Origin: Phaffia rhodozyma | Lineage: Eukaryota > Basidiomycota > Tremellomycetes > Cystofilobasidiales > Mrakiaceae | Direction: 5' to 3' | DNA length: 64,000 nt | Assembly (NCBI GenBank): GCA_014706385.1 | Contig: JACGZH010000001.1 | Span: forward strand, 1-64,000 | Shown here: in pieces, positions 1-39,951 of the stretch | How the letters are laid out: each line of letters begins with the position of its first letter | Position numbering within the stretch: the stretch's first letter is position 1 | Notes under the pieces: model-generated | What the model saw: the letters and a program-made list of their open reading frames with translations, nothing else | Told to the model about the DNA's origin: nothing | Database searches by the model: none | Position numbers and translations under genes: made by a program

Positions 1-13
1 CCCTAACCCTAAC
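1..13. repeat. Terminal telomere repeat (CCCTAA)2
   Basis: CCCTAACCCTAAC at the left edge is the C-rich telomere strand read toward the centromere, i.e. TTAGGG on the G-strand. Only two repeats are present, so either the true end lies beyond the window or the assembly stops short. It is followed at once by a short element stub (about 14-123). Confidence 0.85.
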
Positions 14-123
14 ATTCTCTACCTCCCCTTAGCGTACACCTCCTACACCTGTCGGTCCTCTTTTTTCTTCTTTCTGCTCGCTACAACCAGACCTTGCTAA
101 AAGAACTATCTATGAATCTAAGA
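14..123 (+). mobile_element. Short 3' stub of the element (most distal)
   Basis: This 3'-terminal fragment matches the roughly 112 bp TTCCTCC-type stubs found between long copies, with several single-base differences at its start. It ends GAATCTAAGA and abuts CCCTAACCCTAA. Confidence 0.8.
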
Positions 124-135
124 CCCTAACCCTAA

Positions 136-1881
136 GATCCACACGAGCTTGCCATCATCCGGAAACTGCCCAGCCTCCACTACCAGCACGGTCTCTTGCT
201 TCTCCGTCGATGCGTCCAGATGAACCTGCGGCACCTCCAACGAACACTAGACACGTCAGATCTCGATCACCCATGGACTGCACTAGACGACGCACTCACC
301 GAGGCGGTTTCCTCATCCGGAACTTCCCCGTCGACTCGACACCGACAGAGCCATCATCCAGCTCCCCACCCGGTTCGGCGGCCTCGGTGTGCTCTCGTTC
401 GCCGACGTCGCCCCACTCGCCTATCAGGCCGCAAACGAGGCAGCAGACACCATCATCGCACCCATCCTCGGCGGCTTTGACATGTCGGACGTCCAGCCAA
501 TGTCCCAAAGGGCTAGAACAAACAGCATGGTCGAACACAAGCTGAGCATTCTCCTTTCTCAGCTCTCACAGCATCAACAGGACTCACTGGCTGAAAACGC
601 GACGTTCCTCGGCCGCAGATGGCTCAACATCATCCCCTTCACCTCCTCGCTCCCTCAGAGACGTCCACATCGCCGCCGGTCTCCACTTCCTCACCTTCTG
701 CCCCGGCCGGTCCGACCTCTGCAACAGCTGCCACCACCAGAACCACTACGGACACGACGAGGTCTGCCACGGCCGCAACCCAGACACCCTCGCTAGACAC
801 GGCAACATCAAGCGGTTAGTACACAAGTCGCTCGCTGCGAACAGCATGTTCAACGTAGAGAACGAACCACTTGTCCCTGGCACCTCCATGCGGACCGATC
901 TCCGGATCACTTCGCCCGACGGTGTCGTCGAGATCGACGTCGCTGTAGTCTCGATCGCATCCGACGCCGCACGAGAGATCGCCAGACGGACCCATCTGTA
1001 CCCACAGGCCGCCAAACAAAACAGATCAGCCTTTGCCACTCGGTTCGCCAGACGGAACGACCGCCCGGTGTCCAGCTCGACCCAGCCCACCAAGCGGTCG
1101 TCGCGATCCTGGACGGGAAAGCAAAAGAAAAGGTACAGACCTATGCGAACCGGATCTATCTTCCCTTCGAGCCCTTCATCCTCACCACCGGCGGGGCGAT
1201 CGACTGCCGGGCGAACGAGCTGATCGACCGGTGGACCAAGCACCTCGGTCCGTCTGCCGCTGGCCGTCTTCTCAGTCATCTTGCTGTCGTCCTGTTGTCT
1301 GCCAGGGCTGCCCACTGGCAGTCTGAACAAAGTCGAGGTGGACGGAAGTGGATGGAAGTGGATGGAAGTGGACGGAAGTGATAGAGAATGGATGGAAGCG
1401 AGAAGGAGTCGTTCTGTTGCGTGTTTCGTTGTGAGATTTACTTCATGATGATGGTGGTCGATGATCAACTTGCAGTTTGCATCTCTTTCTCTTTCTTCTT
1501 TCTTTCTTTTCTCTTCTATCTTATCTTCTTTTCTTCTTCTTTCTTTCCATCTTATCTCGTTTTCTTTTCGTCTTATCTGTTTCCTTCCATCTTACTCTAT
1601 TCTCTCTTTCTACTTCTACTTCTGTTTCTACTTCTGTTTCGATCTCTTTACTTCCTTCTTCTTCATTTTATCCTACTTTATTCTTTACCTCTTTCTCTAT
1701 TTCTTCCTTTACTTCTACTTCCATTTCTACTTCTTCCCCTCTTCCTCCTACCTCCCCTTACCTCCCTTAGCGTACACCTCCTACACCTCCTACACCTCCT
1801 ACACCTGTCGGTCCTCTTTCTTTCTTCTTCCTGCTCGCTACAACCAGACCTTGCTAAAAGAAACTATCTATGAATCTAAAA
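136..1881 (+). mobile_element. Long element copy 1 (frameshifted)
   Basis: The copy begins GATCCACACG with one base missing against the consensus. The C-terminal ORF is broken by several single-base indels (around 312 and 650). Its 3' region has the c-t-t-c minisatellite pattern (c=GTGGACGGAA, t=GTGGATGGAA) and a deletion of about 48 bp in the pyrimidine tract. Both traits recur only in the copy at 16566, which marks the start of a higher-order duplicate. It is followed by CCCTAACCCTAACC and the medium copy at 1894. Confidence 0.85.
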
Positions 1882-1893
1882 CCCTAACCCTAA

Positions 1894-2801
1894 CCGCCAA
1901 ACAAAACAGATCAGCCTTTGCCACTCGGTTCGCCAGACGGAACGACCCGCCCGGTGTCCAGCTCGACCCAGCCCACCAAGCGGTCGTCGCGATCCTGGAC
2001 GGGAAAGCAAAAGAAAAGGTACAGACCTATGCGAACCGGATCTATCTTCCCTTCGAGCCCTTCATCCTCACCACCGGCGGGGCGATCGACTGCCGGGCGA
2101 ACGAGCTGATCGACCGGTGGACCAAGCACCTCGGTCGTCTGCCGCTGGCCGTCTTCTCAGTCATCTTGCTGTCGTCCTGTTGTCTGCCAGGGGCTGCCCA
2201 CTGGCAGTTCTGAACAAAGTCGAGGTGGACGGAAGTGACGGAAGTGATAGAGAATGGATGGAAGCGAGAAGGAGTCGTTCTGTTGGTGTTTTCGTTGTGA
2301 GATTTACTTCATGATGATGGTGGTCGATGATCAACTTGCAGTTTGCATCTCTTTCTCTTTCTTCTTTCTTTCTTTCTTTTCTTTCTATCTTATCTTCTTT
2401 TCTTTCTTTCTTTCTTTCCATCTTATCTCGTTTTCTTTCGTCTTATCTTGTTTCCTTCCATCTTACTCTATTTCTCTCTTTCTACTTCTACTTCTGTTTC
2501 TACTTCTGTTTCGATCTCTTTACTTCCTTCTTCTTCATTTTATCCTACTTTATTCTTTACCTCTTTCTCTATTTCTATCTTTACTTCTACTTCTATTTCT
2601 ATCCTTACTTCTACTTCTATTTCTTCCTTTACTTCTACTTCCATTTCTACTTCTTCCCCTCTTCCTCCTACCTCCCCTTACCTCCCCTTAGCGTACACCT
2701 CCTACACCTCCTACACCTCCTACACCTGTCGGTCCTCTTTCTTTCTTCTTCCTGCTCGCTACAACCAGACCTTGCTAAAAGAACTATCTATGAATCTAAA
2801 A
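1894..2801 (+). mobile_element. Medium element copy, 5' truncation inside ORF
   Basis: The telomere tract joins the element at CCGCCAAAC, inside the endonuclease ORF. The two C residues are shared by telomere and element, so the exact junction is ambiguous (microhomology). Only the last ~100 codons of the ORF remain, and the frame is lost near the 3' end. An independent 5' truncation point like this is what incomplete reverse transcription leaves. The same junction occurs at 18338. Confidence 0.88.
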
Positions 2802-2821
2802 CCCTAACCCTAACCCTAACC

Positions 2822-2933
2822 TTCCTCCTACCTCCCCTTAGCGTACACCTCCTACACCTGTCGGTCCTCTTTCTTTCTTCTTTCTGCTCGCTACAACCAG
2901 ACCTTGCTAAAAGAACTATCTATGAATCTAAGA
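2822..2933 (+). mobile_element. Short 3' stub, TTCCTCC type (representative)
   Basis: This ~112 bp 3'-terminal fragment sits between two telomere tracts. It has one CTACACCTC unit and the TTTCTGC variant, whereas most long copies have three units and TTCCTGC, so it derives from a different source subfamily. Equivalent stubs precede almost every long copy, for example at 12578-12689 and 36762-36873. Confidence 0.85.
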
Positions 2934-2945
2934 CCCTAACCCTAA

Positions 2946-4731
2946 GATCCACCACGAGCTTGCCATCATCCGGAAACTGCCCAGCCTCCACTACCAGCAC
3001 GGTCTCTTGCTTCTCCGTCGATGCGTCCAGATGAACCTGCGGCACCTCCAACGAACACTAGACACGTCAGATCTCGATCACCCATGGACTGCACTAGACG
3101 ACGCACTCACCGAGGCGGTTCTCCTCATCCGGAACTCTCCCCGTCGACTCGACACCGACAGAGCCATCATCCAGCTCCCCACCCGGTTCGGCGGCCTCGG
3201 TGTGCTCTCGTTCGCCGACGTCGCCCCACTCGCCTATCAGGCCGCAAACGAGGCAGCAGACACCATCATCGCACCCATCCTCGGCGGCTTTGACATGTCG
3301 GACGTCCAGCCAATGTCCCAAAGGGCTAGAACAAACAGCATGGTCGAACACAAGCTGAGCATTCTCCTTTCTCAGCTCTCACAGCATCAACAGGACTCAC
3401 TGGCTGAAAAACGCGACGTTCCTCGGCCGCAGATGGCTCAACATCATCCCCTTCACCTCCTCGCTCTCCCTCAGAGACGTCCACATCGCCGCCGGTCTCC
3501 ACTTCCTCACCTCTGCCCCGGCCGGTCCGACCTCTGCAACAGCTGCCACCACCAGAACCACTACGGACACGACGAGGTCTGCCACGGCCGCAACCCAGAC
3601 ACCCTCGCTAGACACGGCAACATCAAGCGGTTAGTACACAAGTCGCTCGCTGCGAACAGCATGTTCAACGTAGAGAACGAACCACTTGTCCCTGGCACCT
3701 CCATGCGGACCGATCTCCGGATCACTTCGCCCGACGGTGTCGTCGAGATCGACGTCGCTGTAGTCTCGATCGCATCCGACGCCGCACGAGAGATCGCCAG
3801 ACGGACCCATCTGTACCCACAGGGCCGCCAAACAAAACAGATCAGCCTTTGCCACTCGGTTCGCCAGACGGAACGACCCGCCCGGTGTCCAGCTCGACCC
3901 AGCCCACCAAGCGGTCGTCGCGATCCTGGACGGGAAAGCAAAAGAAAAGGTACAGACCTATGCGAACCGGATCTATCTTCCCTTCGAGCCCTTCATCCTC
4001 ACCACCGGCGGGGCGATCGACTGCCGGGCGAACGAGCTGATCGACCGGTGGACCAAGCACCTCGGTCCGTCTGCCGCTGGCCGTCTTCTCAGTCATCTTG
4101 CTGTCGTCCTGTTGTCTGCCAGGGCTGCCCACTGGCAGTTCTGAACAAAGTCGAGGTGGACGGAAGTGGACGGAAGTGATAGAGAATGGATGGAAGCGAG
4201 AAGGAGTCGTTCTGTTGTGTGTTTCGTTGTGAGATTTACTTCATGATGATGGTGGTCGATGATCAACTTGCAGTTTGCATCTCTTTCTCTTTCTTCTTTC
4301 TTTCTTTCTTTTCTTCTATCTTATCTTCTTTCTTCTTTCTTTCTTTCCATCTTATCTCGTTTCTTTTCGTCTTATCTTGTTTCCTTCCATCTTACTCTAT
4401 TTCTCTCTTCTACTTCTACTTCTGTTTCTACTTCTGGTTTCGATCTCTTTACTTCCTTCTTCTTCATGTTTATCCTACTTTATTCTTAAACCTCTTTCTC
4501 TATTTCTATCTGTACTTCTACTCTATTTCTATCCTTACTCTACTTCTATTTCTTCCTTTACGTTCTACTTCCATTTCTACTTCTTCCCCTCTTCCTCCTA
4601 CCTCCCCTTACCTCCCCTTAGCGTACACCTCCTACACCTCCTACACCTCCTACACCTGTCGGTCCTCTTTCTTTCTTCTTCCTGCTCGCTACAACCAGAC
4701 CTTGCTAAAAGAACTATCTATGAATCTAAAA
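2946..4731 (+). mobile_element. Long element copy 2 (frameshifted)
   Basis: The frame is open from the 5' end to about 3410 and is then shifted by an extra A in the Lys/Asn region, with further indels downstream and in the pyrimidine tract. The minisatellite pattern is c-c, matching its partner at 19392. Confidence 0.85.
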
Positions 4732-4876
4732 CCCTAACCCTACCCTAACCTTCCTCCTACCTCCCCTTAGCGTACACCTCCTACACCTGTCGGCTCCTCT
4801 TTCTTTCTTCTTTCTGCTCGCTACAACCAGACCTTTGCTAAAAGAACTATCTATGAATCTAAGACCCTAACCCTAA

Positions 4877-6653
4877 GATCCACCACGAGCTTGCCATCAT
4901 CCGGAAACTGCCCAGCCTCCACTACCAGCACGGTCTCTTGCTTCTCCGTCGATGCGTCCAGAATGAACCTGCGGGCACCTCCAACGAACACTAGACACGT
5001 CAGATCTCGATCACCCATGGACTGCACTAGACGACGCACTCACCGAGGCGGTTCTCCTCATCCGGAACTCTCCCCGTCGACTCGACACCGACAGAGCCAT
5101 CATCCAGCTCCCCACCCGGTTCGGCGGCCTCGGTGTGCTCTCGTTCGCCGACGTCGCCCCACTCGCCTATCAGGCCGCAAACGAGGGCAGCAGACACCAT
5201 CATCGCACCCATCCTCGGCGGCTTTGACATGTCGGACGTCCAGCCAATGTCCCAAAGGGCTAGAACAAACAGCATGGTCGAACACAAGCTGAGCATTCTC
5301 CTTTCTCAGCTCTCACAGCATCAACAGGACTCACTGGCTGAAAACGCGACGTTCCTCGGCCGCAGATGGCTCAACATCATCCCCTTCACCTCCTCGCTCT
5401 CCCTCAGAGACGTCCACATCGCCGCCGGTCTCCACTTCCTCACCTTCTGCCCCGGCCGGTCCGACCTCTGCAACAGCTGCCACCACCAGAACCACTACGG
5501 ACACGACGAGGTCTGCCACGGCCGCAACCCAGACACCCTCGCTAGACACGGCAACATCAAGCGGTTAGTACACAAGTCGCTCGCTGCGAACAGCATGTTC
5601 AACGTAGAGAACGAACCACTTGTCCCTGGCACCTCCATGCGGACCGATCTCCGGATCACTTCGCCCGACGGTGTCGTCGAGATCGACGTCGCTGTAGTCT
5701 CGATCGCATCCGACGCCGCACGAGAGATCGCCAGACGGACCCATCTGTACCCACAGGCCGCCAAACAAAACAGATCAGCCTTTGCCACTCGGTTCGCCAG
5801 ACGGAACGACCCGCCCGGTGTCCAGCTCGACCCAGCCCACCAAGCGGTCGTCGCGATCCTGGACGGGAAAGCAAAAGAAAAGGTACAGACCTATGCGAAC
5901 CGGATCTATCTTCCCTTCGAGCCCTTCATCCTCACCACCGGCGGGGCGATCGACTGCCGGGCGAACGAGCTGATCGACCGGTGGACCAAGCACCTCGGTC
6001 CGTCTGCCGCTGGCCGTCTCTCAGTTCATCTTGCTGTCGTTCCTGTTGTCTGCCAGGGCTGCCCACTGGCAGTTCTGAACAAAGTCGAGGTGGACGGAAG
6101 TGGATGGAAGTGGACGGAAGTGATAGAGAATGGATGGAAGCGAGAAGGAATGTCGTTCTTGTTGCGTGTTTCGTTGTGAGATTTACTTCATGATGATGGT
6201 GGTCGATGATCAACTTGCAGTTTGCATCTCTTTCTCTTTCTTCTTTCTTCTTTCTTTTCTTTCTATCTTATCTTCTTTTCTTTCTTTCTTTCTTTCCATC
6301 TTATCTCGTTTTCTTTTCGTCTTATCTTGTTTCCTTCCATCTTACTCTATTTCTCTCTTTCTACTTCTACTTCTGTTTCTACTTCTGTTTCGATCTCTTT
6401 ACTTCCTTCTTCTTCATTTATACCTACTTCATTCTTTACCTCTTTCTCTATTTCTATCCTTACTTCTACTTCTATTTCTATCCTTACTTTCTACTTCTAT
6501 TTCTTTCTTTACTTCTACTTCCATTTCTACTTCTTCCCCTCTTCTTCCTACCTCCCCTTAGCGTACACCTCGTACACCTGTCGGTCCTCTTTCTTTCTTC
6601 TTTCTGCTCGCTACAACCAGACCTTGCTAAAAGAACTATCTATGAATCTAAGA
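4877..6653 (+). mobile_element. Long element copy 3 (frameshifted)
   Basis: Indels near 4963 and 5186 break the ORF; from about 5190 onward it is intact. Its 3' end is a distinct variant with CGTACACCTG, and is followed by extra stubs at 6669-6744 and 6753-6863. The same variant and stub pair recur at 21324-23303. Confidence 0.85.
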
Positions 6654-6668
6654 CCCTAACCCTAACCC

Positions 6669-6744
6669 TGTCGGTTCCTCTTTCTTTCTTCTTCTGCTCG
6701 CTACAACCAGACCTTGCTAAAAGAACTATCTATGAATCTAAGGA
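6669..6744 (+). mobile_element. Shortest 3' stub (TGTCGGTCC type)
   Basis: This ~75 bp 3'-terminal fragment lies between telomere repeats, with CC at the junction shared by telomere and element. The counterpart lies at 23109-23183. It is the fourth distinct 5' truncation point seen in the array. Confidence 0.8.
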
Positions 6745-6875
6745 CCCTAACCTTCCTCCTACCTCCCCTTAGCGTACACCTCCTACACCTGTCGGTCCTC
6801 TTCTTTCTTCTTTCTGCTCGCTACAACCAGACCTTGCTAAAAGAACTATCTATGAATCTAAGACCCTAACCCTAA

Positions 6876-8680
6876 GATCCACACGAGCTTGCCATCATCC
6901 GGAAACTGCCCAGCCTCCACTACCCAGCACGGTCTCTTGCTTCTCCGTCGATCGGTCCAGATTGAACCTGCGGCACCTCCAACGAAACACTAGACACGTC
7001 AGATCTCGATCACCCATGGACTGCACTAGACGACGCACTCACCGAGGCGGTTCTCCTCATCCGGAACTCTCCCCGTCGACTCGACAACCGACAGAGCATC
7101 ATCCAGCTCCCCACCCGGTTCGGCGGCCTCGGTGTTGCTCTCGTTCGCCGACGTCGCCCCACTCCGCCTATCAGGCCGCAAACGAGGCAGCAGACACCAT
7201 CATCGCACCCATCCTCGGCGGCTTTTGACATGTCGGACGTCCAGCCAATGTCCCAAAGGGCTAGAACAAACAGCATGGTCGAACACAAGCTGAGCATTCT
7301 CCTTTCTCAGCTCTCACAGCATCAACAGGACTCACTGCTGAAAACGCGACGTTCTCGGCCGCAGATGGCTCAACATCATCCCCTTCACCTCCTCTCGTCT
7401 CCCTCAGAGACGTCCACATCGCCGCCGGTCTCCACTTCCTCACCTTCTGCCCCGGGCCGGTCCGACCTCTGCAACAGCTGCCACCACCAGAACCACTACG
7501 GACACGACGAGGTCTGCCACGGGCCGCAACCCAGACACCCTCGCTAGACACGGCAACATCAAGCGGTTAGTACACAAGTCGCTCGCTGCGAACAGCATGT
7601 TCAACGTAGAGAACGAACCACTTGTCCCTGGCACCTCCATGCGGACCGATCTCCGGATCACTTCGCCCGACGGTGTCGTCGAGATCGACGTCGCTTGTAG
7701 TCTCGATCGCATCCGACGCCGCACGAGAGATCGCCAGACGGACCCATCTGTACCCACAGGCCGCCAAACAAAACAGATCAGCCTTTGCCACTCGGTTCGC
7801 CAGACGGAACGACCCGCCCGGTGTCCAGCTCGACCCAGCCCACCAAGCGGTCGTCGCGATCCTGGACGGGAAAGCAAAAGAAAAGGTACAGACCTATGCG
7901 AACCGGATCTATCTTCCCTTCGAGCCCTTCATCCTCACCACCGGCGGGGCGATCGACTGCCGGGGCGAACGAGCTGATCGACCGGTGGACCAAGCACCTC
8001 GGTCCGTCTGCCGCTGGCCGTCTTCTCAGTCATCTTGCTGTCGTCCTGTTGTCTGCCAGGGCTGCCCACTGGCAGTTCTGAACAAAGTCGAGGTGGACGG
8101 AAGTGGAGGAAGTGGACGGAAGTGATAGAGAATGGATGGAAGCGAGAAGGAGTCGTTCTGTTGCGTGTTTCGTTGTGAGATTTACTTCATGATGATGGTG
8201 GTCGATGATCAACTTGCAGTTTGCATCTCTTTCTCTTCTTCTTTCTTTCTTTCTTTTCTTTCTATCTTATCTTCTTTTCTTTCTTTCTTTCTTTCCATCG
8301 TATCTCGTTTTTCTTTTCGTCGTATCTTGTTTCCTTCCATCTTACTCTATTTCTCTCTTTCTACTTCTACTTCTGTTTCTACTTCTGTTTCGATCTCTTT
8401 ACTTCCTTCTTCTTCATTTTATCCTACTTTATTCTTTACCTCTTTCTCTATTTCTATCTTTACTTCTACTTCTATTTCTATCCTTACTTCTACTTCTATT
8501 TCTTCCTTTACTTCTACTTCCATTTCTACTTCTTCCCCTCTTCCTCCTACCTCCCTTACCTCCCCTTAGCGTACACCTCCTACACCCTCCTACACCTCCT
8601 ACACCTGTCGGTCCTCTTTCTTTCTTCTTCCTGCTCGCTACAACCAGACCTTGCTAAAAGAACTATCTATGAATCTAAAA
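6876..8680 (+). mobile_element. Long element copy 4 (heavily frameshifted)
   Basis: This is the most error-dense copy, with about ten single-base indels across the ORF (for example near 6955, 7085, 7134, 7225, 7336 and 7695). The indels are mostly lost or gained bases in short runs, a pattern typical of uncorrected long-read sequence, though genuine decay is possible. The minisatellite is c-t-c like the copy at 23316. Confidence 0.83.
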
Positions 8681-8825
8681 CCCTAACCCTAACCCCTAAC
8701 CTTCCTCCTACCTCCCCTTAGCGTACACCTCCTACACCTGTCGGTCCTCTTTCTTTCTTCTTTCTGCTCGCTACAACCAGACCTTGCTAAAAGAACTATC
8801 TATGAATCTAAGACCCTAACCCTAA

Positions 8826-10615
8826 GATCCACCACGAGCTTGCCATCATCCGGAAACTGCCCAGCCTCCACTACCAGCACGGTCTCTTGCTTCTCCGTCG
8901 ATGCGTCAGATGAACCTGCGGCACCTCCAACGAACACTAGACACGTCAGATCTCGATCACCCATGGACTGCACTAGACGACGCACTCACCGAGGCGGTTC
9001 TCCTCATCCGGAACTCTCCCCGTCGACTCGACACCGACAGAGCCATCATCCAGCTCCCCACCCGGTTCGGCGGCCTCGGTGTGCTCTCGTTCGCCGACGT
9101 CGCCCCACTCGCCTATCAGGCCGCAAACGAGGCAGCAGACACCATCATCGCACCCATCCTCGGCGGCTTTGACATGTCGGACGTCCAGCCAATGTCCCAA
9201 AGGGCTAGAACAAACAGCATGGTCGAACACAAGCTGAGCATTCTCCTTTCTCAGCTCTCACAGCATCAACAGGACTCACTGGCTGAAAACGCGACGTTCC
9301 TCGGCCGCAGATGGCTCAACATCATCCCCTTCACCTCCTCGCTCTCCCTCAGAGACGTCCACATCGCCGCCGGTCTCCACTTCCTCACCTTCTGCCCCGG
9401 CCGGTCCGACCTCTGCAACAGCTGCCACCACCAGAACCACTACGGACACGACGAGGTCTGCCACGGCCGCAACCCAGACACCCTCGCTAGACACGGCAAC
9501 ATCAAGCGGTTAGTACACAAGTCGCTCGCTGCGAACAGCATGTTCAACGTAGAGAACGAACCACTTGTCCCTGGCACCTCCATGCGGACCGATCTCCGGA
9601 TCACTTCGCCCGACGGTGTCGTCGAGATCGACGTCGCTGTAGTCTCGATCGCATCCGACGCCGCACGAGAGATCGCCAGACGGACCCATCTGTACCCACA
9701 GGCCGCCAAACAAAACAGATCAGCCTTTGCCACTCGGTTCGCCAGACGGAACGACCCGCCCGGTGTCCAGCTCGACCCAGCCCACCAAGCGGTCGTCGCG
9801 ATCCTGGACGGGAAAGCAAAAGAAAAGGTACAGACCTATGCGAACCGGATCTATCTTCCCTTCGAGCCCTTCATCCTCACCACCGGCGGGGCGATCGACT
9901 GCCGGGCGAACGAGCTGATCGACCGGTGGACCAAGCACCTCGGTCCGTCTGCCGCTGGCCGTCTTCTCAGTCATCTTGCTGTCGTCCTGTTGTCTGCCAG
10001 GGCTGCCCACTGGCAGTTCTGAACAAAGTCGAGGTGGACGAAGGAAGTGGACGGAAGTGATAGAGAATGGATGGAAGCGAGAAGGAGTCGTTCTGTGCGT
10101 GTTTCGTTGTGAGATTTACTTCATGATGATGGTGGTCGATGATCAACTTGCAGTTTGCATCTCTTTCTCTTTCTTCTTTCTTTCTTTCTTTTCTTTCTAT
10201 CTTATCTTCTTTTCTTTCTTTCTTTCTTTCCATCTTATCTCGTTTTCTTTTCGTCTTATCTTGTTTCCTTCCATCTTACTCTATTTCTCTCTTTCTACTT
10301 CTACTTCTGTTTCTACTTCTGTTTCGATCTCTTTACTTCCTTCTTCTTCATTTTATCCTACTTTATTCTTTACCTCTTTCTCTATTTCTATCTTTACTTC
10401 TACTTCTATTTCTATCCTTACTTCTACTTCTATTTCTTCCTTTACTTCTACTTCCATTTCTACTTCTTCCCCTCTTCCTCCTACCTCCCCTTACCTCCCC
10501 TTAGCGTACACCTCCTACACCTCCTACACCTCCTACACCTGTCGGTCCTCTTTCTTTCTTCTTCCTGCTCGCTACAACCAGACCTTGCTAAAAGAACTAT
10601 CTATGAATCTAAAAA
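8826..10615 (+). mobile_element. Long element copy 5 (ORF intact from first ATG)
   Basis: One base is missing upstream of the first in-frame ATG (GCGTCAGATG for GCGTCCAGATG). From that ATG to the stop at 10020-10022 the frame is open and matches the consensus. The linker after the stop is slightly rearranged. Confidence 0.88.
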
Positions 10616-10759
10616 CCCTAACCCTAACCCTAACCTTCCTCCTACCTCCCCTTAGCGTACACCTCCTACACCTGTCGGTCCTCTTTCTTTCTTCTTTCTG
10701 CTCGCTACAACCAGACCTTGCTAAAAGAACTATCTATGAATCTAAGACCCTAACCCTAA

Positions 10760-12557: not shown

Positions 12558-12701
12558 CCCTAACCCTAACCCTAACCTTCCTCCTACCTCCCCTTAGCGT
12601 ACACCTCCTACACCTGTCGGTCCTCTTTCTTTCTTCTTTCTGCTCGCTACAACCAGACCTTGCTAAAAGAACTATCTATGAATCTAAGACCCTAACCCTA
12701 A

Positions 12702-18325: not shown

Positions 18326-18337
18326 CCCTAACCCTAA

Positions 18338-25113: not shown

Positions 25114-25257
25114 CCCTAACCCTAACCCTAACCTTCCTCCTACCTCCCCTTAGCGTACACCTCCTACACCTGTCGGTCCTCTTTCTTTCTTCTTTCTGCT
25201 CGCTACAACCAGACCTTGCTAAAAGAACTATCTATGAATCTAAGACCCTAACCCTAA

Positions 25258-27055: not shown

Positions 27056-27199
27056 CCCTAACCCTAACCCTAACCTTCCTCCTACCTCCCCTTAGCGTAC
27101 ACCTCCTACACCTGTCGGTCCTCTTTCTTTCTTCTTTCTGCTCGCTACAACCAGACCTTGCTAAAAGAACTATCTATGAATCTAAGACCCTAACCCTAA

Positions 27200-28997
27200 G
27201 ATCCACCACGAGCTTGCCATCATCCGGAAACTGCCCAGCCTCCACTACCAGCACGGTCTCTTGCTTCTCCGTCGATGCGTCCAGATGAACCTGCGGCACC
27301 TCCAACGAACACTAGACACGTCAGATCTCGATCACCCATGGACTGCACTAGACGACGCACTCACCGAGGCGGTTCTCCTCATCCGGAACTCTCCCCGTCG
27401 ACTCGACACCGACAGAGCCATCATCCAGCTCCCCACCCGGTTCGGCGGCCTCGGTGTGCTCTCGTTCGCCGACGTCGCCCCACTCGCCTATCAGGCCGCA
27501 AACGAGGCAGCAGACACCATCATCGCACCCATCCTCGGCGGCTTTGACATGTCGGACGTCCAGCCAATGTCCCAAAGGGCTAGAACAAACAGCATGGTCG
27601 AACACAAGCTGAGCATTCTCCTTTCTCAGCTCTCACAGCATCAACAGGACTCACTGGCTGAAAACGCGACGTTCCTCGGCCGCAGATGGCTCAACATCAT
27701 CCCCTTCACCTCCTCGCTCTCCCTCAGAGACGTCCACATCGCCGCCGGTCTCCACTTCCTCACCTTCTGCCCCGGCCGGTCCGACCTCTGCAACAGCTGC
27801 CACCACCAGAACCACTACGGACACGACGAGGTCTGCCACGGCCGCAACCCAGACACCCTCGCTAGACACGGCAACATCAAGCGGTTAGTACACAAGTCGC
27901 TCGCTGCGAACAGCATGTTCAACGTAGAGAACGAACCACTTGTCCCTGGCACCTCCATGCGGACCGATCTCCGGATCACTTCGCCCGACGGTGTCGTCGA
28001 GATCGACGTCGCTGTAGTCTCGATCGCATCCGACGCCGCACGAGAGATCGCCAGACGGACCCATCTGTACCCACAGGCCGCCAAACAAAACAGATCAGCC
28101 TTTGCCACTCGGTTCGCCAGACGGAACGACCCGCCCGGTGTCCAGCTCGACCCAGCCCACCAAGCGGTCGTCGCGATCCTGGACGGGAAAGCAAAAGAAA
28201 AGGTACAGACCTATGCGAACCGGATCTATCTTCCCTTCGAGCCCTTCATCCTCACCACCGGCGGGGCGATCGACTGCCGGGCGAACGAGCTGATCGACCG
28301 GTGGACCAAGCACCTCGGTCCGTCTGCCGCTGGCCGTCTTCTCAGTCATCTTGCTGTCGTCCTGTTGTCTGCCAGGGCTGCCCACTGGCAGTTCTGAACA
28401 AAGTCGAGGTGGACGGAAGTGGATGGAAGTGGACGGAAGTGATAGAGAATGGATGGAAGCGAGAAGGAGTCGTTCTGTTGCGTGTTTCGTTGTGAGATTT
28501 ACTTCATGATGATGGTGGTCGATGATCAACTTGCAGTTTGCATCTCTTTCTCTTTCTTCTTTCTTTCTTTCTTTTCTTTCTATCTTATCTTCTTTTCTTT
28601 CTTTCTTTCTTTCCATCTTATCTCGTTTTCTTTTCGTCTTATCTTGTTTCCTTCCATCTTACTCTATTTCTCTCTTTCTACTTCTACTTCTGTTTCTACT
28701 TCTGTTTCGATCTCTTTACTTCCTTCTTCTTCATTTTATCCTACTTTATTCTTTACCTCTTTCTCTATTTCTATCTTTACTTCTACTTCTATTTCTATCC
28801 TTACTTCTACTTCTATTTCTTCCTTTACTTCTACTTCCATTTCTACTTCTTCCCCTCTTCCTCCTACCTCCCCTTACCTCCCCTTAGCGTACACCTCCTA
28901 CACCTCCTACACCTCCTACACCTGTCGGTCCTCTTTCTTTCTTCTTCCTGCTCGCTACAACCAGACCTTGCTAAAAGAACTATCTATGAATCTAAAA
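27200..28997 (+). mobile_element. Long element copy 14
   Basis: The ORF is intact to 28397, with a c-t-c minisatellite. It is the counterpart of copy 6. Confidence 0.9.
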
Positions 28998-29141
28998 CCC
29001 TAACCCTAACCCTAACCTTCCTCCTACCTCCCCTTAGCGTACACCTCCTACACCTGTCGGTCCTCTTTCTTTCTTCTTTCTGCTCGCTACAACCAGACCT
29101 TGCTAAAAGAACTATCTATGAATCTAAGACCCTAACCCTAA

Positions 29142-30909
29142 GATCCACCACGAGCTTGCCATCATCCGGAAACTGCCCAGCCTCCACTACCAGCACGGTC
29201 TCTTGCTTCTCCGTCGATGCGTCCAGATGAACCTGCGGCACCTCCAACGAACACTAGACACGTCAGATCTCGATCACCCATGGACTGCACTAGACGACGC
29301 ACTCACCGAGGCGGTTCTCCTCATCCGGAACTCTCCCCGTCGACTCGACACCGACAGAGCCATCATCCAGCTCCCCACCCGGTTCGGCGGCCTCGGTGTG
29401 CTCTCGTTCGCCGACGTCGCCCCACTCGCCTATCAGGCCGCAAACGAGGCAGCAGACACCATCATCGCACCCATCCTCGGCGGCTTTGACATGTCGGACG
29501 TCCAGCCAATGTCCCAAAGGGCTAGAACAAACAGCATGGTCGAACACAAGCTGAGCATTCTCCTTTCTCAGCTCTCACAGCATCAACAGGACTCACTGGC
29601 TGAAAACGCGACGTTCCTCGGCCGCAGATGGCTCAACATCATCCCCTTCACCTCCTCGCTCTCCCTCAGAGACGTCCACATCGCCGCCGGTCTCCACTTC
29701 CTCACCTTCTGCCCCGGCCGGTCCGACCTCTGCAACAGCTGCCACCACCAGAACCACTACGGACACGACGAGGTCTGCCACGGCCGCAACCCAGACACCC
29801 TCGCTAGACACGGCAACATCAAGCGGTTAGTACACAAGTCGCTCGCTGCGAACAGCATGTTCAACGTAGAGAACGAACCACTTGTCCCTGGCACCTCCAT
29901 GCGGACCGATCTCCGGATCACTTCGCCCGACGGTGTCGTCGAGATCGACGTCGCTGTAGTCTCGATCGCATCCGACGCCGCACGAGAGATCGCCAGACGG
30001 ACCCATCTGTACCCACAGGCCGCCAAACAAAACAGATCAGCCTTTGCCACTCGGTTCGCCAGACGGAACGACCCGCCCGGTGTCCAGCTCGACCCAGCCC
30101 ACCAAGCGGTCGTCGCGATCCTGGACGGGAAAGCAAAAGAAAAGGTACAGACCTATGCGAACCGGATCTATCTTCCCTTCGAGCCCTTCATCCTCACCAC
30201 CGGCGGGGCGATCGACTGCCGGGCGAACGAGCTGATCGACCGGTGGACCAAGCACCTCGGTCCGTCTGCCGCTGGCCGTCTTCTCAGTCATCTTGCTGTC
30301 GTCCTGTTGTCTGCCAGGGCTGCCCACTGGCAGTTCTGAACAAAGTCGAGGTGGACGGAAGTGGATGGAAGCGAGAAGGAGTCGTTCTGTTGCGTGTTTC
30401 GTTGTGAGATTTACTTCATGATGATGGTTGTTGATGATCAACTTGCAGTTTGCATCTCTTTCTCTTTCTTCTTTCTTTCTTTCTTTTCTTTCTATCTTAT
30501 CTTCTTTTCTTTCTTTCTTTCTTTCCATCTTATCTCGTTTTCTTTTCGTCTTATCTTGTTTCCTTCCATCTTACTCTATTTCTCTCTTTCTACTTCTACT
30601 TCTGTTTCTACTTCTGTTTCGATCTCTTTACTTCCTTCTTCTTCATTTTATCCTACTTTATTCTTTACCTCTTTCTCTATTTCTATCTTTACTTCTACTT
30701 CTATTTCTATCCTTACTTCTACTTCTATTTCTTCCTTTACTTCTACTTCCATTTCTACTTCTTCCCCTCTTCCTCCTACCTCCCCTTACCTCCCCTTAGC
30801 GTACACCTCCTACACCTCCTACACCTCCTACACCTGTCGGTCCTCTTTCTTTCTTCTTCCTGCTCGCTACAACCAGACCTTGCTAAAAGAACTATCTATG
30901 AATCTAAAA
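29142..30909 (+). mobile_element. Long element copy 15 (linker deletion)
   Basis: The ORF is intact to 30339. The 3' linker lacks the last minisatellite unit and the GATAGAGAATGG segment. It carries the variant GGTTGTTGATG (near 30426) that is shared only with the innermost copy at 36886. Confidence 0.9.
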
Positions 30910-31053
30910 CCCTAACCCTAACCCTAACCTTCCTCCTACCTCCCCTTAGCGTACACCTCCTACACCTGTCGGTCCTCTTTCTTTCTTCTTTCTGCTCGCT
31001 ACAACCAGACCTTGCTAAAAGAACTATCTATGAATCTAAGACCCTAACCCTAA

Positions 31054-32841
31054 GATCCACCACGAGCTTGCCATCATCCGGAAACTGCCCAGCCTCCACT
31101 ACCAGCACGGTCTCTTGCTTCTCCGTCGATGCGTCCAGATGAACCTGCGGCACCTCCAACGAACACTAGACACGTCAGATCTCGATCACCCATGGACTGC
31201 ACTAGACGACGCACTCACCGAGGCGGTTCTCCTCATCCGGAACTCTCCCCGTCGACTCGACACCGACAGAGCCATCATCCAGCTCCCCACCCGGTTCGGC
31301 GGCCTCGGTGTGCTCTCGTTCGCCGACGTCGCCCCACTCGCCTATCAGGCCGCAAACGAGGCAGCAGACACCATCATCGCACCCATCCTCGGCGGCTTTG
31401 ACATGTCGGACGTCCAGCCAATGTCCCAAAGGGCTAGAACAAACAGCATGGTCGAACACAAGCTGAGCATTCTCCTTTCTCAGCTCTCACAGCATCAACA
31501 GGACTCACTGGCTGAAAACGCGACGTTCCTCGGCCGCAGATGGCTCAACATCATCCCCTTCACCTCCTCGCTCTCCCTCAGAGACGTCCACATCGCCGCC
31601 GGTCTCCACTTCCTCACCTTCTGCCCCGGCCGGTCCGACCTCTGCAACAGCTGCCACCACCAGAACCACTACGGACACGACGAGGTCTGCCACGGCCGCA
31701 ACCCAGACACCCTCGCTAGACACGGCAACATCAAGCGGTTAGTACACAAGTCGCTCGCTGCGAACAGCATGTTCAACGTAGAGAACGAACCACTTGTCCC
31801 TGGCACCTCCATGCGGACCGATCTCCGGATCACTTCGCCCGACGGTGTCGTCGAGATCGACGTCGCTGTAGTCTCGATCGCATCCGACGCCGCACGAGAG
31901 ATCGCCAGACGGACCCATCTGTACCCACAGGCCGCCAAACAAAACAGATCAGCCTTTGCCACTCGGTTCGCCAGACGGAACGACCCGCCCGGTGTCCAGC
32001 TCGACCCAGCCCACCAAGCGGTCGTCGCGATCCTGGACGGGAAAGCAAAAGAAAAGGTACAGACCTATGCGAACCGGATCTATCTTCCCTTCGAGCCCTT
32101 CATCCTCACCACCGGCGGGGCGATCGACTGCCGGGCGAACGAGCTGATCGACCGGTGGACCAAGCACCTCGGTCCGTCTGCCGCTGGCCGTCTTCTCAGT
32201 CATCTTGCTGTCGTCCTGTTGTCTGCCAGGGCTGCCCACTGGCAGTTCTGAACAAAGTCGAGGTGGACGGAAGTGGACGGAAGTGATAGAGAATGGATGG
32301 AAGCGAGAAGGAGTCGTTCTGTTGTGTGTTTCGTTGTGAGATTTACTTCATGATGATGGTGGTCGATGATCAACTTGCAGTTTGCATCTCTTTCTCTTTC
32401 TTCTTTCTTTCTTTCTTTTCTTTCTATCTTATCTTCTTTTCTTTCTTTCTTTCTTTCCATCTTATCTCGTTTTCTTTTCGTCTTATCTTGTTTCCTTCCA
32501 TCTTACTCTATTTCTCTCTTTCTACTTCTACTTCTGTTTCTACTTCTGTTTCGATCTCTTTACTTCCTTCTTCTTCATTTTATCCTACTTTATTCTTTAC
32601 CTCTTTCTCTATTTCTATCTTTACTTCTACTTCTATTTCTATCCTTACTTCTACTTCTATTTCTTCCTTTACTTCTACTTCCATTTCTACTTCTTCCCCT
32701 CTTCCTCCTACCTCCCCTTACCTCCCCTTAGCGTACACCTCCTACACCTCCTACACCTCCTACACCTGTCGGTCCTCTTTCTTTCTTCTTCCTGCTCGCT
32801 ACAACCAGACCTTGCTAAAAGAACTATCTATGAATCTAAAA
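31054..32841 (+). mobile_element. Long element copy 16
   Basis: The ORF is intact to 32251, with a c-c minisatellite and a standard 3' end. Confidence 0.9.
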
Positions 32842-32985
32842 CCCTAACCCTAACCCTAACCTTCCTCCTACCTCCCCTTAGCGTACACCTCCTACACCTG
32901 TCGGTCCTCTTTCTTTCTTCTTTCTGCTCGCTACAACCAGACCTTGCTAAAAGAACTATCTATGAATCTAAGACCCTAACCCTAA

Positions 32986-34783
32986 GATCCACCACGAGCT
33001 TGCCATCATCCGGAAACTGCCCAGCCTCCACTACCAGCACGGTCTCTTGCTTCTCCGTCGATGCGTCCAGATGAACCTGCGGCACCTCCAACGAACACTA
33101 GACACGTCAGATCTCGATCACCCATGGACTGCACTAGACGACGCACTCACCGAGGCGGTTCTCCTCATCCGGAACTCTCCCCGTCGACTCGACACCGACA
33201 GAGCCATCATCCAGCTCCCCACCCGGTTCGGCGGCCTCGGTGTGCTCTCGTTCGCCGACGTCGCCCCACTCGCCTATCAGGCCGCAAACGAGGCAGCAGA
33301 CACCATCATCGCACCCATCCTCGGCGGCTTTGACATGTCGGACGTCCAGCCAATGTCCCAAAGGGCTAGAACAAACAGCATGGTCGAACACAAGCTGAGC
33401 ATTCTCCTTTCTCAGCTCTCACAGCATCAACAGGACTCACTGGCTGAAAACGCGACGTTCCTCGGCCGCAGATGGCTCAACATCATCCCCTTCACCTCCT
33501 CGCTCTCCCTCAGAGACGTCCACATCGCCGCCGGTCTCCACTTCCTCACCTTCTGCCCCGGCCGGTCCGACCTCTGCAACAGCTGCCACCACCAGAACCA
33601 CTACGGACACGACGAGGTCTGCCACGGCCGCAACCCAGACACCCTCGCTAGACACGGCAACATCAAGCGGTTAGTACACAAGTCGCTCGCTGCGAACAGC
33701 ATGTTCAACGTAGAGAACGAACCACTTGTCCCTGGCACCTCCATGCGGACCGATCTCCGGATCACTTCGCCCGACGGTGTCGTCGAGATCGACGTCGCTG
33801 TAGTCTCGATCGCATCCGACGCCGCACGAGAGATCGCCAGACGGACCCATCTGTACCCACAGGCCGCCAAACAAAACAGATCAGCCTTTGCCACTCGGTT
33901 CGCCAGACGGAACGACCCGCCCGGTGTCCAGCTCGACCCAGCCCACCAAGCGGTCGTCGCGATCCTGGACGGGAAAGCAAAAGAAAAGGTACAGACCTAT
34001 GCGAACCGGATCTATCTTCCCTTCGAGCCCTTCATCCTCACCACCGGCGGGGCGATCGACTGCCGGGCGAACGAGCTGATCGACCGGTGGACCAAGCACC
34101 TCGGTCCGTCTGCCGCTGGCCGTCTTCTCAGTCATCTTGCTGTCGTCCTGTTGTCTGCCAGGGCTGCCCACTGGCAGTTCTGAACAAAGTCGAGGTGGAC
34201 GGAAGTGGATGGAAGTGGACGGAAGTGATAGAGAATGGATGGAAGCGAGAAGGAGTCGTTCTGTTGCGTGTTTCGTTGTGAGATTTACTTCATGATGATG
34301 GTGGTCGATGATCAACTTGCAGTTTGCATCTCTTTCTCTTTCTTCTTTCTTTCTTTCTTTTCTTTCTATCTTATCTTCTTTTCTTTCTTTCTTTCTTTCC
34401 ATCTTATCTCGTTTTCTTTTCGTCTTATCTTGTTTCCTTCCATCTTACTCTATTTCTCTCTTTCTACTTCTACTTCTGTTTCTACTTCTGTTTCGATCTC
34501 TTTACTTCCTTCTTCTTCATTTTATCCTACTTTATTCTTTACCTCTTTCTCTATTTCTATCTTTACTTCTACTTCTATTTCTATCCTTACTTCTACTTCT
34601 ATTTCTTCCTTTACTTCTACTTCCATTTCTACTTCTTCCCCTCTTCCTCCTACCTCCCCTTACCTCCCCTTAGCGTACACCTCCTACACCTCCTACACCT
34701 CCTACACCTGTCGGTCCTCTTTCTTTCTTCTTCCTGCTCGCTACAACCAGACCTTGCTAAAAGAACTATCTATGAATCTAAAA
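32986..34783 (+). mobile_element. Long element copy 17
   Basis: The ORF is intact to 34183, with a c-t-c minisatellite and a standard 3' end. Confidence 0.9.
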
Positions 34784-34927
34784 CCCTAACCCTAACCCTA
34801 ACCTTCCTCCTACCTCCCCTTAGCGTACACCTCCTACACCTGTCGGTCCTCTTTCTTTCTTCTTTCTGCTCGCTACAACCAGACCTTGCTAAAAGAACTA
34901 TCTATGAATCTAAGACCCTAACCCTAA

Positions 34928-36753
34928 GATCCACCACGAGCTTGCCATCATCCGGAAACTGCCCAGCCTCCACTACCAGCACGGTCTCTTGCTTCTCCGT
35001 CGATGCGTCCAGATGAACCTGCGGCACCTCCAACGAACACTAGACACGTCAGATCTCGATCACCCATGGACTGCACTAGACGACGCACTCACCGAGGCGG
35101 TTCTCCTCATCCGGAACTCTCCCCGTCGACTCGACACCGACAGAGCCATCATCCAGCTCCCCACCCGGTTCGGCGGCCTCGGTGTGCTCTCGTTCGCCGA
35201 CGTCGCCCCACTCGCCTATCAGGCCGCAAACGAGGCAGCAGACACCATCATCGCACCCATCCTCGGCGGCTTTGACATGTCGGACGTCCAGCCAATGTCC
35301 CAAAGGGCTAGAACAAACAGCATGGTCGAACACAAGCTGAGCATTCTCCTTTCTCAGCTCTCACAGCATCAACAGGACTCACTGGCTGAAAACGCGACGT
35401 TCCTCGGCCGCAGATGGCTCAACATCATCCCCTTCACCTCCTCGCTCTCCCTCAGAGACGTCCACATCGCCGCCGGTCTCCACTTCCTCACCTTCTGCCC
35501 CGGCCGGTCCGACCTCTGCAACAGCTGCCACCACCAGAACCACTACGGACACGACGAGGTCTGCCACGGCCGCAACCCAGACACCCTCGCTAGACACGGC
35601 AACATCAAGCGGTTAGTACACAAGTCGCTCGCTGCGAACAGCATGTTCAACGTAGAGAACGAACCACTTGTCCCTGGCACCTCCATGCGGACCGATCTCC
35701 GGATCACTTCGCCCGACGGTGTCGTCGAGATCGACGTCGCTGTAGTCTCGATCGCATCCGACGCCGCACGAGAGATCGCCAGACGGACCCATCTGTACCC
35801 ACAGGCCGCCAAACAAAACAGATCAGCCTTTGCCACTCGGTTCGCCAGACGGAACGACCCGCCCGGTGTCCAGCTCGACCCAGCCCACCAAGCGGTCGTC
35901 GCGATCCTGGACGGGAAAGCAAATGAAAAGGTACAGACCTATGCGAACCGGATCTATCTTCCCTTCGAGCCCTTCATCCTCACCACCGGCGGGGCGATCG
36001 ACTGCCGGGCGAACGAGCTGATCGACCGGTGGACCAAGCACCTCGGTCCGTCTGCCGCTGGCCGTCTTCTCAGTCATCTTGCTGTCGTCCTGTTGTCTGC
36101 CAGGGCTGCCCACTGGCAGTTCTGAACAAAGTCGAGGTGGACGGAAGTGGATGGAAGTGGATGGAAGTGGACGGAAGTGATAGAGAATGGATGGAAGCGA
36201 GAAGGAGTCGTTCTGTTGCGTGTTTCGTTGTGAGATTTACTTCATGATGATGGTGGTCGATGATCAACTTGCAGTTTGCATCTCTTTCTCTTTCTTCTTT
36301 CTTTCTTTCTTTTCTTTCTATCTTATCTTCTTTTCTTTCTTTCTTTCTTTCCATCTTATCTCGTTTTCTTTTCGTCTTATCTTGTTTCCTTCCATCTTAC
36401 TCTATTTCTCTCTTTCTACTTCTACTTCTGTTTCTACTTCTGTTTCGATCTCTTTACTTCCTTCTTCTTCATTTTATCCTACTTTATTCTTTACCTCTTT
36501 CTCTATTTCTATCTTTACTTCTACTTCTATTTCTATCCTTACTTCTACTTCTATTTCTTCCTTTACTTCTACTTCCATTTCTACTTCTTCCCCTCTTCCT
36601 CCTACCTCCCCTTACCTCCCCTTAGCGTACACCTCCTACACCTCCTACACCTCCTACACCTCCTACACCTCCTACACCTGTCGGTCCTCTTTCTTTCTTC
36701 TTTCTGCTCGCTACAACCAGACCTTGCTAAAAGAACTATCTATGAATCTAAGA
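34928..36753 (+). mobile_element. Long element copy 18 (one amino-acid change)
   Basis: The ORF is intact to 36125. It has a unique AAA-to-AAT change (Lys to Asn) in the Gly-Lys-Ala-Lys segment. The minisatellite is c-t-t-c, and the CTACACCTC repeat is expanded to five units near 36630-36680. The 3' end is of the TTTCTGC subtype. Confidence 0.9.
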
Positions 36754-36885
36754 CCCTAACCTTCCTCCTACCTCCCCTTAGCGTACACCTCCTACACCTG
36801 TCGGTCCTCTTTCTTTCTTCTTTCTGCTCGCTACAACCAGACCTTGCTAAAAGAACTATCTATGAATCTAAGACCCTAACCCTAA

Positions 36886-38276
36886 GATCCACCACGAGCT
36901 TGCCATCATCCGGAAACTGCCCAGCCTCCACTACCAGCACGGTCTCTTGCTTCTCCGTCGATGCGTCCAGATGAACCTGCGGCACCTCCAACGAACACTA
37001 GACACGTCAGATCTCGATCACCCATGGACTGCACTAGACGACGCACTCACCGAGGCGGTTCTCCTCATCCGGAACTCTCCCCGTCGACTCGACACCGACA
37101 GAGCCATCATCCAGCTCCCCACCCGGTTCGGCGGCCTCGGTGTGCTCTCGTTCGCCGACGTCGCCCCACTCGCCTATCAGGCCGCAAACGAGGCAGCAGA
37201 CACCATCATCGCACCCATCCTCGGCGGCTTTGACATGTCGGACGTCCAGCCAATGTCCCAAAGGGCTAGAACAAACAGCATGGTCGAACACAAGCTGAGC
37301 ATTCTCCTTTCTCAGCTCTCACAGCATCAACAGGACTCACTGGCTGAAAACGCGACGTTCCTCGGCCGCAGATGGCTCAACATCATCCCCTTCACCTCCT
37401 CGCTCTCCCTCAGAGACGTCCACATCGCCGCCGGTCTCCACTTCCTCACCTTCTGCCCCGGCCGGTCCGACCTCTGCAACAGCTGCCACCACCAGAACCA
37501 CTACGGACACGACGAGGTCTGCCACGGCCGCAACCCAGACACCCTCGCTAGACACGGCAACATCAAGCGGTTAGTACACAAGTCGCTCGCTGCGAACAGC
37601 ATGTTCAACGTAGAGAACGAACCACTTGTCCCTGGCACCTCCATGCGGACCGATCTCCGGATCACTTCGCCCGACGGTGTCGTCGAGATCGACGTCGCTG
37701 TAGTCTCGATCGCATCCGACGCCGCACGAGAGATCGCCAGACGGACCCATCTGTACCCACAGGCCGCCAAACAAAACAGATCAGCCTTTGCCACTCGGTT
37801 CGCCAGACGGAACGACCCGCCCGGTGTCCAGCTCGACCCAGCCCACCAAGCGGTCGTCGCGATCCTGGACGGGAAAGCAAAAGAAAAGGTACAGACCTAT
37901 GCGAACCGGATCTATCTTCCCTTCGAGCCCTTCATCCTCACCACCGGCGGGGCGATCGACTGCCGGGCGAACGAGCTGATCGACCGGTGGACCAAGCACC
38001 TCGGTCCGTCTGCCGCTGGCCGTCTTCTCAGTCATCTTGCTGTCGTCCTGTTGTCTGCCAGGGCTGCCCACTGGCAGTTCTGAACAAAGTCGAGGTGGAC
38101 GGAAGTGGACGGAAGTGGATGGAAGTGGATGGAAGTGGATGGAAGTGGACGGAAGTGGACGGAAGTGATAGAGAATGGATGGAAGCGAGAAGGAGTCGTT
38201 CTGTTGCGTGTTTCGTTGTGAGATTTACTTCATGATGATGGTTGTTGATGATCAACTTGCAGTTTGCATCTCTTTC

Positions 38277-38311
<35 letters not shown>

Positions 38312-38667
38312 ATCTTATCTTCTTTCCTTTCCATCTTATCTCGTTTTCTTTTCGTCTTATCTTGTTTCCTTCCATCTTACTCTATTTCTCTCTTTCTACT
38401 TCTACTTCTGTTTCTACTTCTGTTTCGATCTCTTTACTTCCTTCTTCTTCATTTTATCCTACTTTATTCTTTACCTCTTTCTCTATTTCTATCCTTACTT
38501 CTACTTCCATTTCTACTTCTTCCCCTCTTCCTCCTACCTCCCCTTACCTCCCCTTAGCGTACACCTCCTACACCTCCTACACCTCCTACACCTGTCGGTC
38601 CTCTTTCTTTCTTCTTTCTGCTCGCTACAACCAGACCTTGCTAAAAGAACTATCTATGAATCTAAAA
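36886..38667 (+). mobile_element. Long element copy 19 (innermost, divergent 3' UTR)
   Basis: The ORF is intact to 38083 and identical in protein to the others. The 3' region is the most divergent in the array: seven minisatellite units (c-c-t-t-t-c-c), the GGTTGTTGATG variant, a longer TTTC run and a shorter CTTCTA tract. This would fit the oldest, centromere-proximal position. Confidence 0.9.
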
Positions 38668-38699
38668 CCCTAACCCTAACCCAACCCTAACCCCCTAAC
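38668..38699. repeat. Degenerate interstitial telomere tract at array base
   Basis: The tract contains CCCTAA units mixed with CCCAA and CCCCCTAA variants. It is the only irregular telomere tract in the array and the boundary with unique chromosome, as expected for an old healed end. Confidence 0.85.
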
Positions 38700-39949: not shown

Positions 39950-39951
39950 GA

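Follow-up and report, generated by a model that had tools for sequence, protein, structure and literature searches.

A probable tandem array of a telomere-dedicated non-LTR retrotransposon at a contig end of Phaffia rhodozyma

The window analyzed here, a 64,000-nucleotide stretch at the left end of a Phaffia rhodozyma contig (C1), is filled from 1 to 38,699 by copies of one element, all on the forward strand and all sharing a single 3' end. We count 19 long copies (~1.8 kb), 2 medium copies, and 21 short pieces, with CCCTAA directly after the 3' end in 42 of 42. The 20-mer at that end has 41 exact occurrences and a further one, near 1869, that contains an inserted base; the same interval has 39 CCCTAA runs of at least two units. 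These counts bear out an earlier, sequence-only reading, which had CCCTAA-flanked copies with one 3' end filling this interval. At the inner edge, a degenerate CCCTAA tract (38668-38699) gives way to unique sequence. The first letters of the contig already belong to the array, no terminal cap preceding them, and 38,699 nt is the part of the array that the contig contains.

The long copies have a common 5' breakpoint (element nt 2433 in 19 of 19), and RT is missing from all copies in the window. Counting from the contig start, the first copy (136-1881), truncated at that nucleotide, the third (4877-6653), and the fourth (6876-8680) lack an intact 403-codon frame; the second (2946-4731) has an indel-shifted frame, yet 415 codons are open, and the fifth (8826-10615), also without the intact frame, has 398 codons open in a different register. 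The 403-codon frame is open in the sixth (10760-12557) and in the seventh (12702-14489), where it runs from 12688 to 13899 and includes a CCHC and REL endonuclease signature at 13291-13509 (residues 202-274 of window protein P0001). It is likewise open in the copies at 14634-16421, 16566-18325, 19392-21179, 21324-23093, 23316-25113, 25258-27055, 27200-28997, 29142-30909, 31054-32841, 32986-34783, and 34928-36753 and in the innermost, at 36886-38667. The two medium copies, 5'-truncated at element nt 3313, lie at 1896-2801 and 18340-19247 and share a 5' junction that is also found at the right end of contig C14.

The full frame is thus unbroken in 14 of the 19 long copies, and the five without it are those closest to the contig start. 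Seventeen of the 19 have no substitutions across 1,197 coding nt; compared with a reference copy, four of the five outermost carry indels only and one carries indels plus three substitutions. Because indels stand nearly alone in these five, sequencing error is a likelier cause of their broken frames than decay. The "21 ORF-bearing copies" reported earlier correspond to the 19 long and 2 medium copies.

The short 3'-end pieces, absent from the earlier list, begin at element nt 4069 in the outermost case (19-123) and at nt 4062 in those at 2821-2933, 4750-4864, 6752-6863, 8701-8813, 10635-10747, 12577-12689, 14509-14621, 16441-16553, 19267-19379, 21199-21311, 23191-23303, 25133-25245, 27075-27187, 29017-29129, 30929-31041, 32861-32973, 34803-34915, and 36761-36873. 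Two extra pieces, at 6670-6751 and 23110-23190, each form the first half of a double piece. A short piece, two CCCTAA units, a truncated copy, and three CCCTAA units make up a composite unit that is repeated in tandem, and a 16.4-kb block of nine long or medium units is itself repeated, at 19-16443 and 16448-32863. The two blocks are 99.27% identical, with 11 mismatches and 109 gap letters, and differ at a clean unit: the minisatellite measures 38 nt in the unit at 12702 and 18 nt in its counterpart at 29142, and a downstream motif is also different (the unit at 4877 was left out of this comparison). Array length and block repetition come from a single assembly that appears to be prone to error in the first 10 kb of this stretch.

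Complete copies, ~4.17 kb long with a single ORF, are present at chromosome ends other than that of the window, where the sequence-only reading had proposed looking for RT-bearing relatives. Those with a leader and start codon have an unbroken frame of 1,174 to 1,194 codons stop to stop (1,181 in copy L031), and translation of one copy, begun at its first ATG, gives a protein of 1,159 aa. The protein comprises, in order, N-terminal zinc-finger-like motifs, an RT with YLDD, a C-terminal CCHC, and a REL endonuclease. The RT is R2-like, R2 being the best PDB match of the element protein, and RVT_1 is its sole Pfam domain up to E = 1; the window ORF by itself has zero Pfam matches and no convincing match in a PDB sequence search. 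The C-terminal signature reads C[x2]C[x7]H[x3]C[x9]RHG.x20.E.x8.RTD.x12.D, in which E is the invariant E250; a REL regular expression, which chose an E earlier than E250, matches 83 among 120 homologues listed. The fold of the C-terminal domain also matches R2. The element's C terminus is a REL endonuclease, as its REL-ENDO-type appearance had indicated. TRAS and SART are APE-type telomeric LINEs with the APE endonuclease at the N terminus, and a relationship to them was rejected on the grounds that RVT_1 is the only Pfam match and that the endonuclease is REL. In an unrooted RT tree of 74 homologues, made without MoTeR, FoTeR, CRE, or R2 rows, the element shares a group (21 rows, SH-aLRT 97) with metagenomic sequences and with those of Wallemia and Tilletia, and the Cryptococcus and Filobasidium rows lie outside this group.

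The 3' end occurs at 102 places across the genome, of which 100 were listed, every one of them at a contig end; one of the remaining two is probably that at 1863 in the window. Among the 100, 12 of 30 contig ends are occupied, with the element's 5' end toward the terminus in 12 of 12. Genome searches listing 55, 37, 95, and 100 of 102 places include no interior copy, so that scattered nontelomeric relatives are not seen among them. A longer 3' end gave 95 exact matches, each followed by CCCTAA, and the 5' flank of the C11 copy consists of only CCCTAACCC. The REL endonuclease, R2-like RT, and contig-end places together uphold the proposal of a REL-ENDO, R2/CRE-type LINE living in telomere repeats of another fungal lineage. 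Six interior RVT_1 matches score above the element (C1, C2, C9, C14, and C11 twice); two of these, L032 and L034, were discarded as relatives, their frames looking by eye like Ty3/gypsy pol. Two further interior matches, C14:567133 and C2:2097390, are weak. C1/C3 haplotypes were also dropped as the source of shared subtelomere because 54,700-64,000 is single copy, with 48,000-54,700 outside that test.

We consider it highly probable that the left end of the window is a telomere-proximal array derived from a telomere-dedicated non-LTR retrotransposon and amplified in tandem. A single shared 5' breakpoint and near-identical bodies point to one amplified composite unit, not to 21 separate insertions, and the earlier view of 21 retrotransposition events gives way to tandem amplification of one truncated unit. 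In the proposed mechanism, REL would nick the telomere repeat and the RNA 3' end would be copied into it by target-primed reverse transcription; insertion at such a nick would place the 3' end of copies centromere-ward and the 5' end terminus-ward, often with 5' truncation. Amplification would start when an interstitial telomere tract breaks; the broken end would invade a neighboring unit, or copying would go round a circle, and telomerase would then cap the new end. Such growth by break-induced or rolling-circle copying at the chromosome tip appears the most likely route in our analysis, and it is the one put forward for Magnaporthe MoTeR arrays.

Copies at other ends have many 5' start points, among them 881, 1009, 2080, 2165, 3302, and 3424, which is the pattern that separate truncated insertions would leave. 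The window differs in that the breakpoint recurs in all 19 long copies, with fixed spacers and near-identical bodies, and the nine-unit order occurs twice; we therefore regard 21 separate retrotranspositions into a single telomere as extremely improbable, the common breakpoint contradicting an origin by independent insertion. Gene conversion following separate insertions could have made the copies alike, but this is contrived given a single shared breakpoint. Another explanation is that the assembler unrolled or looped a shorter array, making the copy number and the 16.4-kb block unreal. The uncapped contig start, the indels in the five outermost long copies, and the likeness of the blocks would suit such an artefact; a simple loop, however, would not yield the clean difference between the units at 12702 and 29142, and analogous tandem units occur at four other contig ends, making an artefact unlikely.

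The 5' ends of complete copies bear on a further alternative, co-transposition as in HeT-A, whereby the 3' UTR of the distal neighbor starts transcription and the 3'-end piece, two CCCTAA units, and the next copy move as one RNA that is repeatedly reinserted. A telomere-like CCCTACCCTACCC-type 5' UTR is found in complete copies (9 places read of 11), and in some the initial 39 nt duplicate a 3'-UTR stretch (31 nt exact; many 37- to 39-nt matches at 100%). The short pieces of the window begin within ~2 nt of this repeat point, and short 3'-end pieces, ~12 to 120 nt in length, precede several long copies, all of which fits co-transposition. Yet just four of the nine complete 5' ends read have a long leader, three having an 18-nt remnant and two none; other short pieces start at different points (such as 4055, 4114, 4136, and 4152); leaders end TACACCT-ACCCT, whereas tags from a neighbor would end at the element's 3' terminus; and identical inter-unit spacers suit amplification better. 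We find co-transposition improbable enough to retain tandem amplification as our reading. A broader idea, which we offer tentatively and hold to be doubtful, is that telomerase-positive yeast ends grow retrotransposon-seeded satellites, in which truncated telomere-LINE units would be copied from circles or breaks and capped by telomerase as an ALT-like buffer layer, together with a HeT-A/TART-like element architecture whose 5' leader would be rebuilt from its own 3' UTR and telomere repeats as a nested series of ever shorter pieces. Leader pieces of that nested, shortening form are present at C2 ~40,060-40,180.

Phaffia rhodozyma is a red, astaxanthin-making, industrial yeast. Gypsy and copia lead its repeats in abundance according to the 2015 genome paper (PMC4393869), and a literature search, with most subscription papers outside its scope, found no published record of a LINE in Phaffia among the papers listed. 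The element is apparently undescribed, with the way of life of Cnl1, MoTeR, and FoTeR; as to the suggestion of an undescribed family, protein and literature searches, within their reach, gave no earlier description, but the kind is known from these three. In Drosophila, the Perfect Non-Terminal Repeats of TART are located in both UTRs, and the 5'/3' repeat of the Phaffia element may be compared with them. Drosophila HeT-A, TART, and TAHRE also form head-to-tail arrays of one orientation at chromosome ends; sense promoters lie in both UTRs of HeT-A and of TAHRE, and "Perfect Non-Terminal Repeats" are a feature of TART (PMC5537684). Phaffia differs in its telomerase, CCCTAA caps, and REL endonuclease; a Telomerase_RBD gene and caps at eight contig ends led us to reject HeT-A/TART-type maintenance in place of telomerase.

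Cnl1 has an R2-superfamily RT near that of MoTeR and full-length copies in subtelomeric arrays with telomere repeats externally; in one patient, its copy number increased from 16 in one isolate to 39 in another, and it also inserts into a reporter gene (PMC12810828). On this description it shares an R2-type RT and telomere-flanked arrays with the Phaffia element, but it enters a reporter gene, whereas the Phaffia element has no interior copy among the places listed. Telomere repeats differ as well, being TAACCCCC-like in Cryptococcus and CCCTAA in Phaffia. The REL motif also occurs in C. neoformans proteins P0019 and P0061, annotated as hypothetical proteins, which we take to be Cnl1; a protein so read is 36% identical to the Phaffia element protein.

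MoTeR is a REL-ENDO element in TTAGGG with head-to-tail arrays, a terminal telomere-like run, and truncated copies; its TEL-D array has 18 copies with identical truncation points and spacers, for which D-loop or rolling-circle copying was invoked (PMC7367193). MoTeR1 and MoTeR2, so described, resemble the Phaffia element in all these features, including REL and the uniform truncation points and spacers. Their host, Magnaporthe oryzae, is an ascomycete, unlike Phaffia; we saw no MoTeR2-like partner here, and, compared by that description, the Phaffia unit differs in joining a 3'-end piece to a truncated copy within a block that is repeated again. FoTeR of Fusarium oxysporum (November 2025) encodes CCHC and REL in a single RT ORF, and several of its proteins have zinc fingers at the N terminus; it is located at chromosome ends only, its 5' end terminus-ward, and full-length copies are bounded by telomere repeats at either end (PMC12857005). 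By that description, ORF layout, end-only location, orientation, and telomere-repeat flanks are alike, but FoTeR belongs to another phylum, measures 4.3 to 7.3 kb with 5' VNTRs against ~4.17 kb, has a printed CCHC/REL consensus from which the Phaffia signature departs at RHG, at RTD, and in its x8 spacer, and is not mentioned in the portion of the source used here as amplifying truncated units in tandem (PMC12857005). The Phaffia element extends the telomere habit of Cnl1, MoTeR, and FoTeR to Cystofilobasidiales, a second order of Tremellomycetes after the one that includes Cryptococcus. It also brings this habit into an industrial yeast, where the insertion of telomere LINEs and the growth of arrays driven by transposons could be followed outside a pathogen; with fixed-junction units at several ends, rolling-circle and break-induced copying could be told apart by long reads.

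Pieces of the element fill the window from 1 to 38,699. As the sequence-only reading had claimed, they are separated by CCCTAA repeats and share one 3′ end, which occurs 42 times in the array and is directly followed by CCCTAA in 42 of 42 cases. Unique sequence begins at 38,700, directly after the innermost CCCTAA tract. Mapped on a 4,174-nt complete copy from contig C2 (L031:246-4419), the pieces comprise 19 long copies, each starting at element nucleotide 2433, 2 medium copies starting at 3313, and 21 short 3′-end pieces (19 start at 4062 to 4069, and the 2 others are part of double pieces). The usual unit consists, in order, of a short piece, CCCTAACCCTAA, a long copy and CCCTAAx3. Counted between successive long copies, the period is 1,912 to 1,958 nt for most units; off-size units lie next to medium copies and double pieces and at the inner end of the array. 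The earlier figure of at least 21 ORF-bearing copies corresponds to the 19 long and 2 medium copies, but the 403-codon frame is fully open in only 14 of the 19 long copies, with indels in the five outermost.

To the claim that the element is dedicated to telomeres, a genome search with its 3′ 20-mer adds support. Allowing at most one mismatch, the search gave 102 matches (91 forward, 11 reverse), against zero for a reversed-pattern control. Nonterminal copies were looked for, and none was found among the 100 of 102 places listed: every one lies within ~53 kb of a contig end, the element 5′ end always points to the terminus, and 12 of 30 contig ends are occupied (left ends of C1, the contig of the window, and of C2, C8, C9, C10, C12, C13 and C14; right ends of C3, C8, C11 and C14). 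The longer 3′ end is exact, with CCCTAA directly after it, at 95 places.

Dissecting how the array arose means asking whether its long copies were inserted separately. All 19 share the 5′ junction AAGACCCTAACCCTAA|GATCC, which over 44 nt is letter-identical in 17 and lacks one base ~10 nt inside in 2. Of 15 inter-unit spacers matched by the pattern, 12 are letter-identical and 3 differ by one base. Relative to copy 12702 (copies are named by window start), 17 of the 19, the reference counted, show zero substitutions over 1,197 nt of coding sequence; copy 6876 has three and copy 34928 has one. When units were scored on minisatellite length, 3′-UTR length and following spacer (unit 4877 in part only), the nine-unit order from 136 was repeated from 16,566, if small indels in the outermost 10 kb are disregarded, with one clear unit difference (12702 versus 29142). 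At 99.27% identity, the two blocks differ by 11 mismatches and 109 gap letters. The common junction, near-invariant spacers, near-identical coding parts and repeated unit order contradict separate insertions, and tandem copying in several rounds explains the array most simply.

Full-length copies at other ends, envisaged in the sequence-only reading, do exist, with eleven complete 5′ ends. All nine that were read carry a telomere-like 5′ UTR (CCCTACCCTACCC...). A leader matching the 3′ UTR is also present in four of the nine (in the C2 reference copy the match is exact over 31 nt), an 18-nt remnant of it in three, and two have no leader. The copy at C2 ~40,060-40,180 has nested leader pieces, progressively shorter, most ending in CCCTAA. 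We read the leaders and their nested pieces as marks left by erosion, healing and recombination.

Eight contig ends are capped by CCCTAA runs of 27 nt or more, and the genome holds a telomerase RNA-binding-domain gene. Five caps (C8 left and right, and C9, C10 and C13 left) all join element nucleotide 1009, although the 3′ parts of the element at these ends differ in part; the C3 right cap joins a ~50-nt element 3′ piece, and the C2 right and C15 left caps meet sequence unrelated to the element. A TTAGGG run also lies mid-contig in the 38-kb C5 (L044, C5:22899-22949), without a junction to the element.

Further sharing between ends is apparent. The 3313 junction is found on both C1 left and C14 right, and runs of 3,466- and 3,486-bp units on C2 left recur on C14 left. 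Window 43,464-48,000 has a 100% copy at the C3 right end (C3:1023868-1028404; compared inward as far as 48,000), which stops at 43,464 under a cap made of this element 3′ piece and CCCTAA repeats. Window 39,427-44,576 has a 98% duplicate ~32 kb inside C10 (C10:31892-36974), and 54,700-64,000 is single copy. Chromosome ends exchange sequence, in a pattern that fits break-induced copying between them. The C11 right (L042) and C12 left (L043) ends carry the same element insertion and a common distal flank, past which lie, on C11, a further TTTCCCTAA-like repeat and, on C12, a stretch of N.

Inward of the array, a tRNA gene lies at 39849-39958 (Rfam match 39856-39949), with 11 more genome places at 93 to 99%, several close to contig ends. 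By eye, the same tRNA-like sequence stands just inside the element array at C10 left (L001, after 3275) and C13 left (L002, after 4225). Close to the tRNA gene is a dispersed repeat (39517-39794; 68 to 75% identity at ~20 places), which may be a solo LTR. A JmjC-like ORF (58,903-60,126, minus strand) shares 249 consecutive identical residues with a Phaffia rhodozyma protein, and on that single gene P. rhodozyma is assigned as the host.

The element protein has 170 homologues. Among the 120 listed, the best reaches 52%, named sources include Filobasidium, Cryptococcus, Wallemia, Tilletia, Rhynchosporium and Cladobotryum, and no Phaffia protein appears. A homologue tree of 74 rows, without an outgroup, has many open forks. 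The element works in the same way as Cnl1, MoTeR and FoTeR and shows each of their defining features that could be checked; we group it with them by those features. The inferred route of array formation matches the one described for MoTeR TEL3 and TEL-D of Magnaporthe (PMC7367193). Beyond these systems, our data add a host order not represented before, a composite unit of which a single array holds 19 long copies, a block that is itself repeated, and, at several further chromosome ends, units specific to the end.
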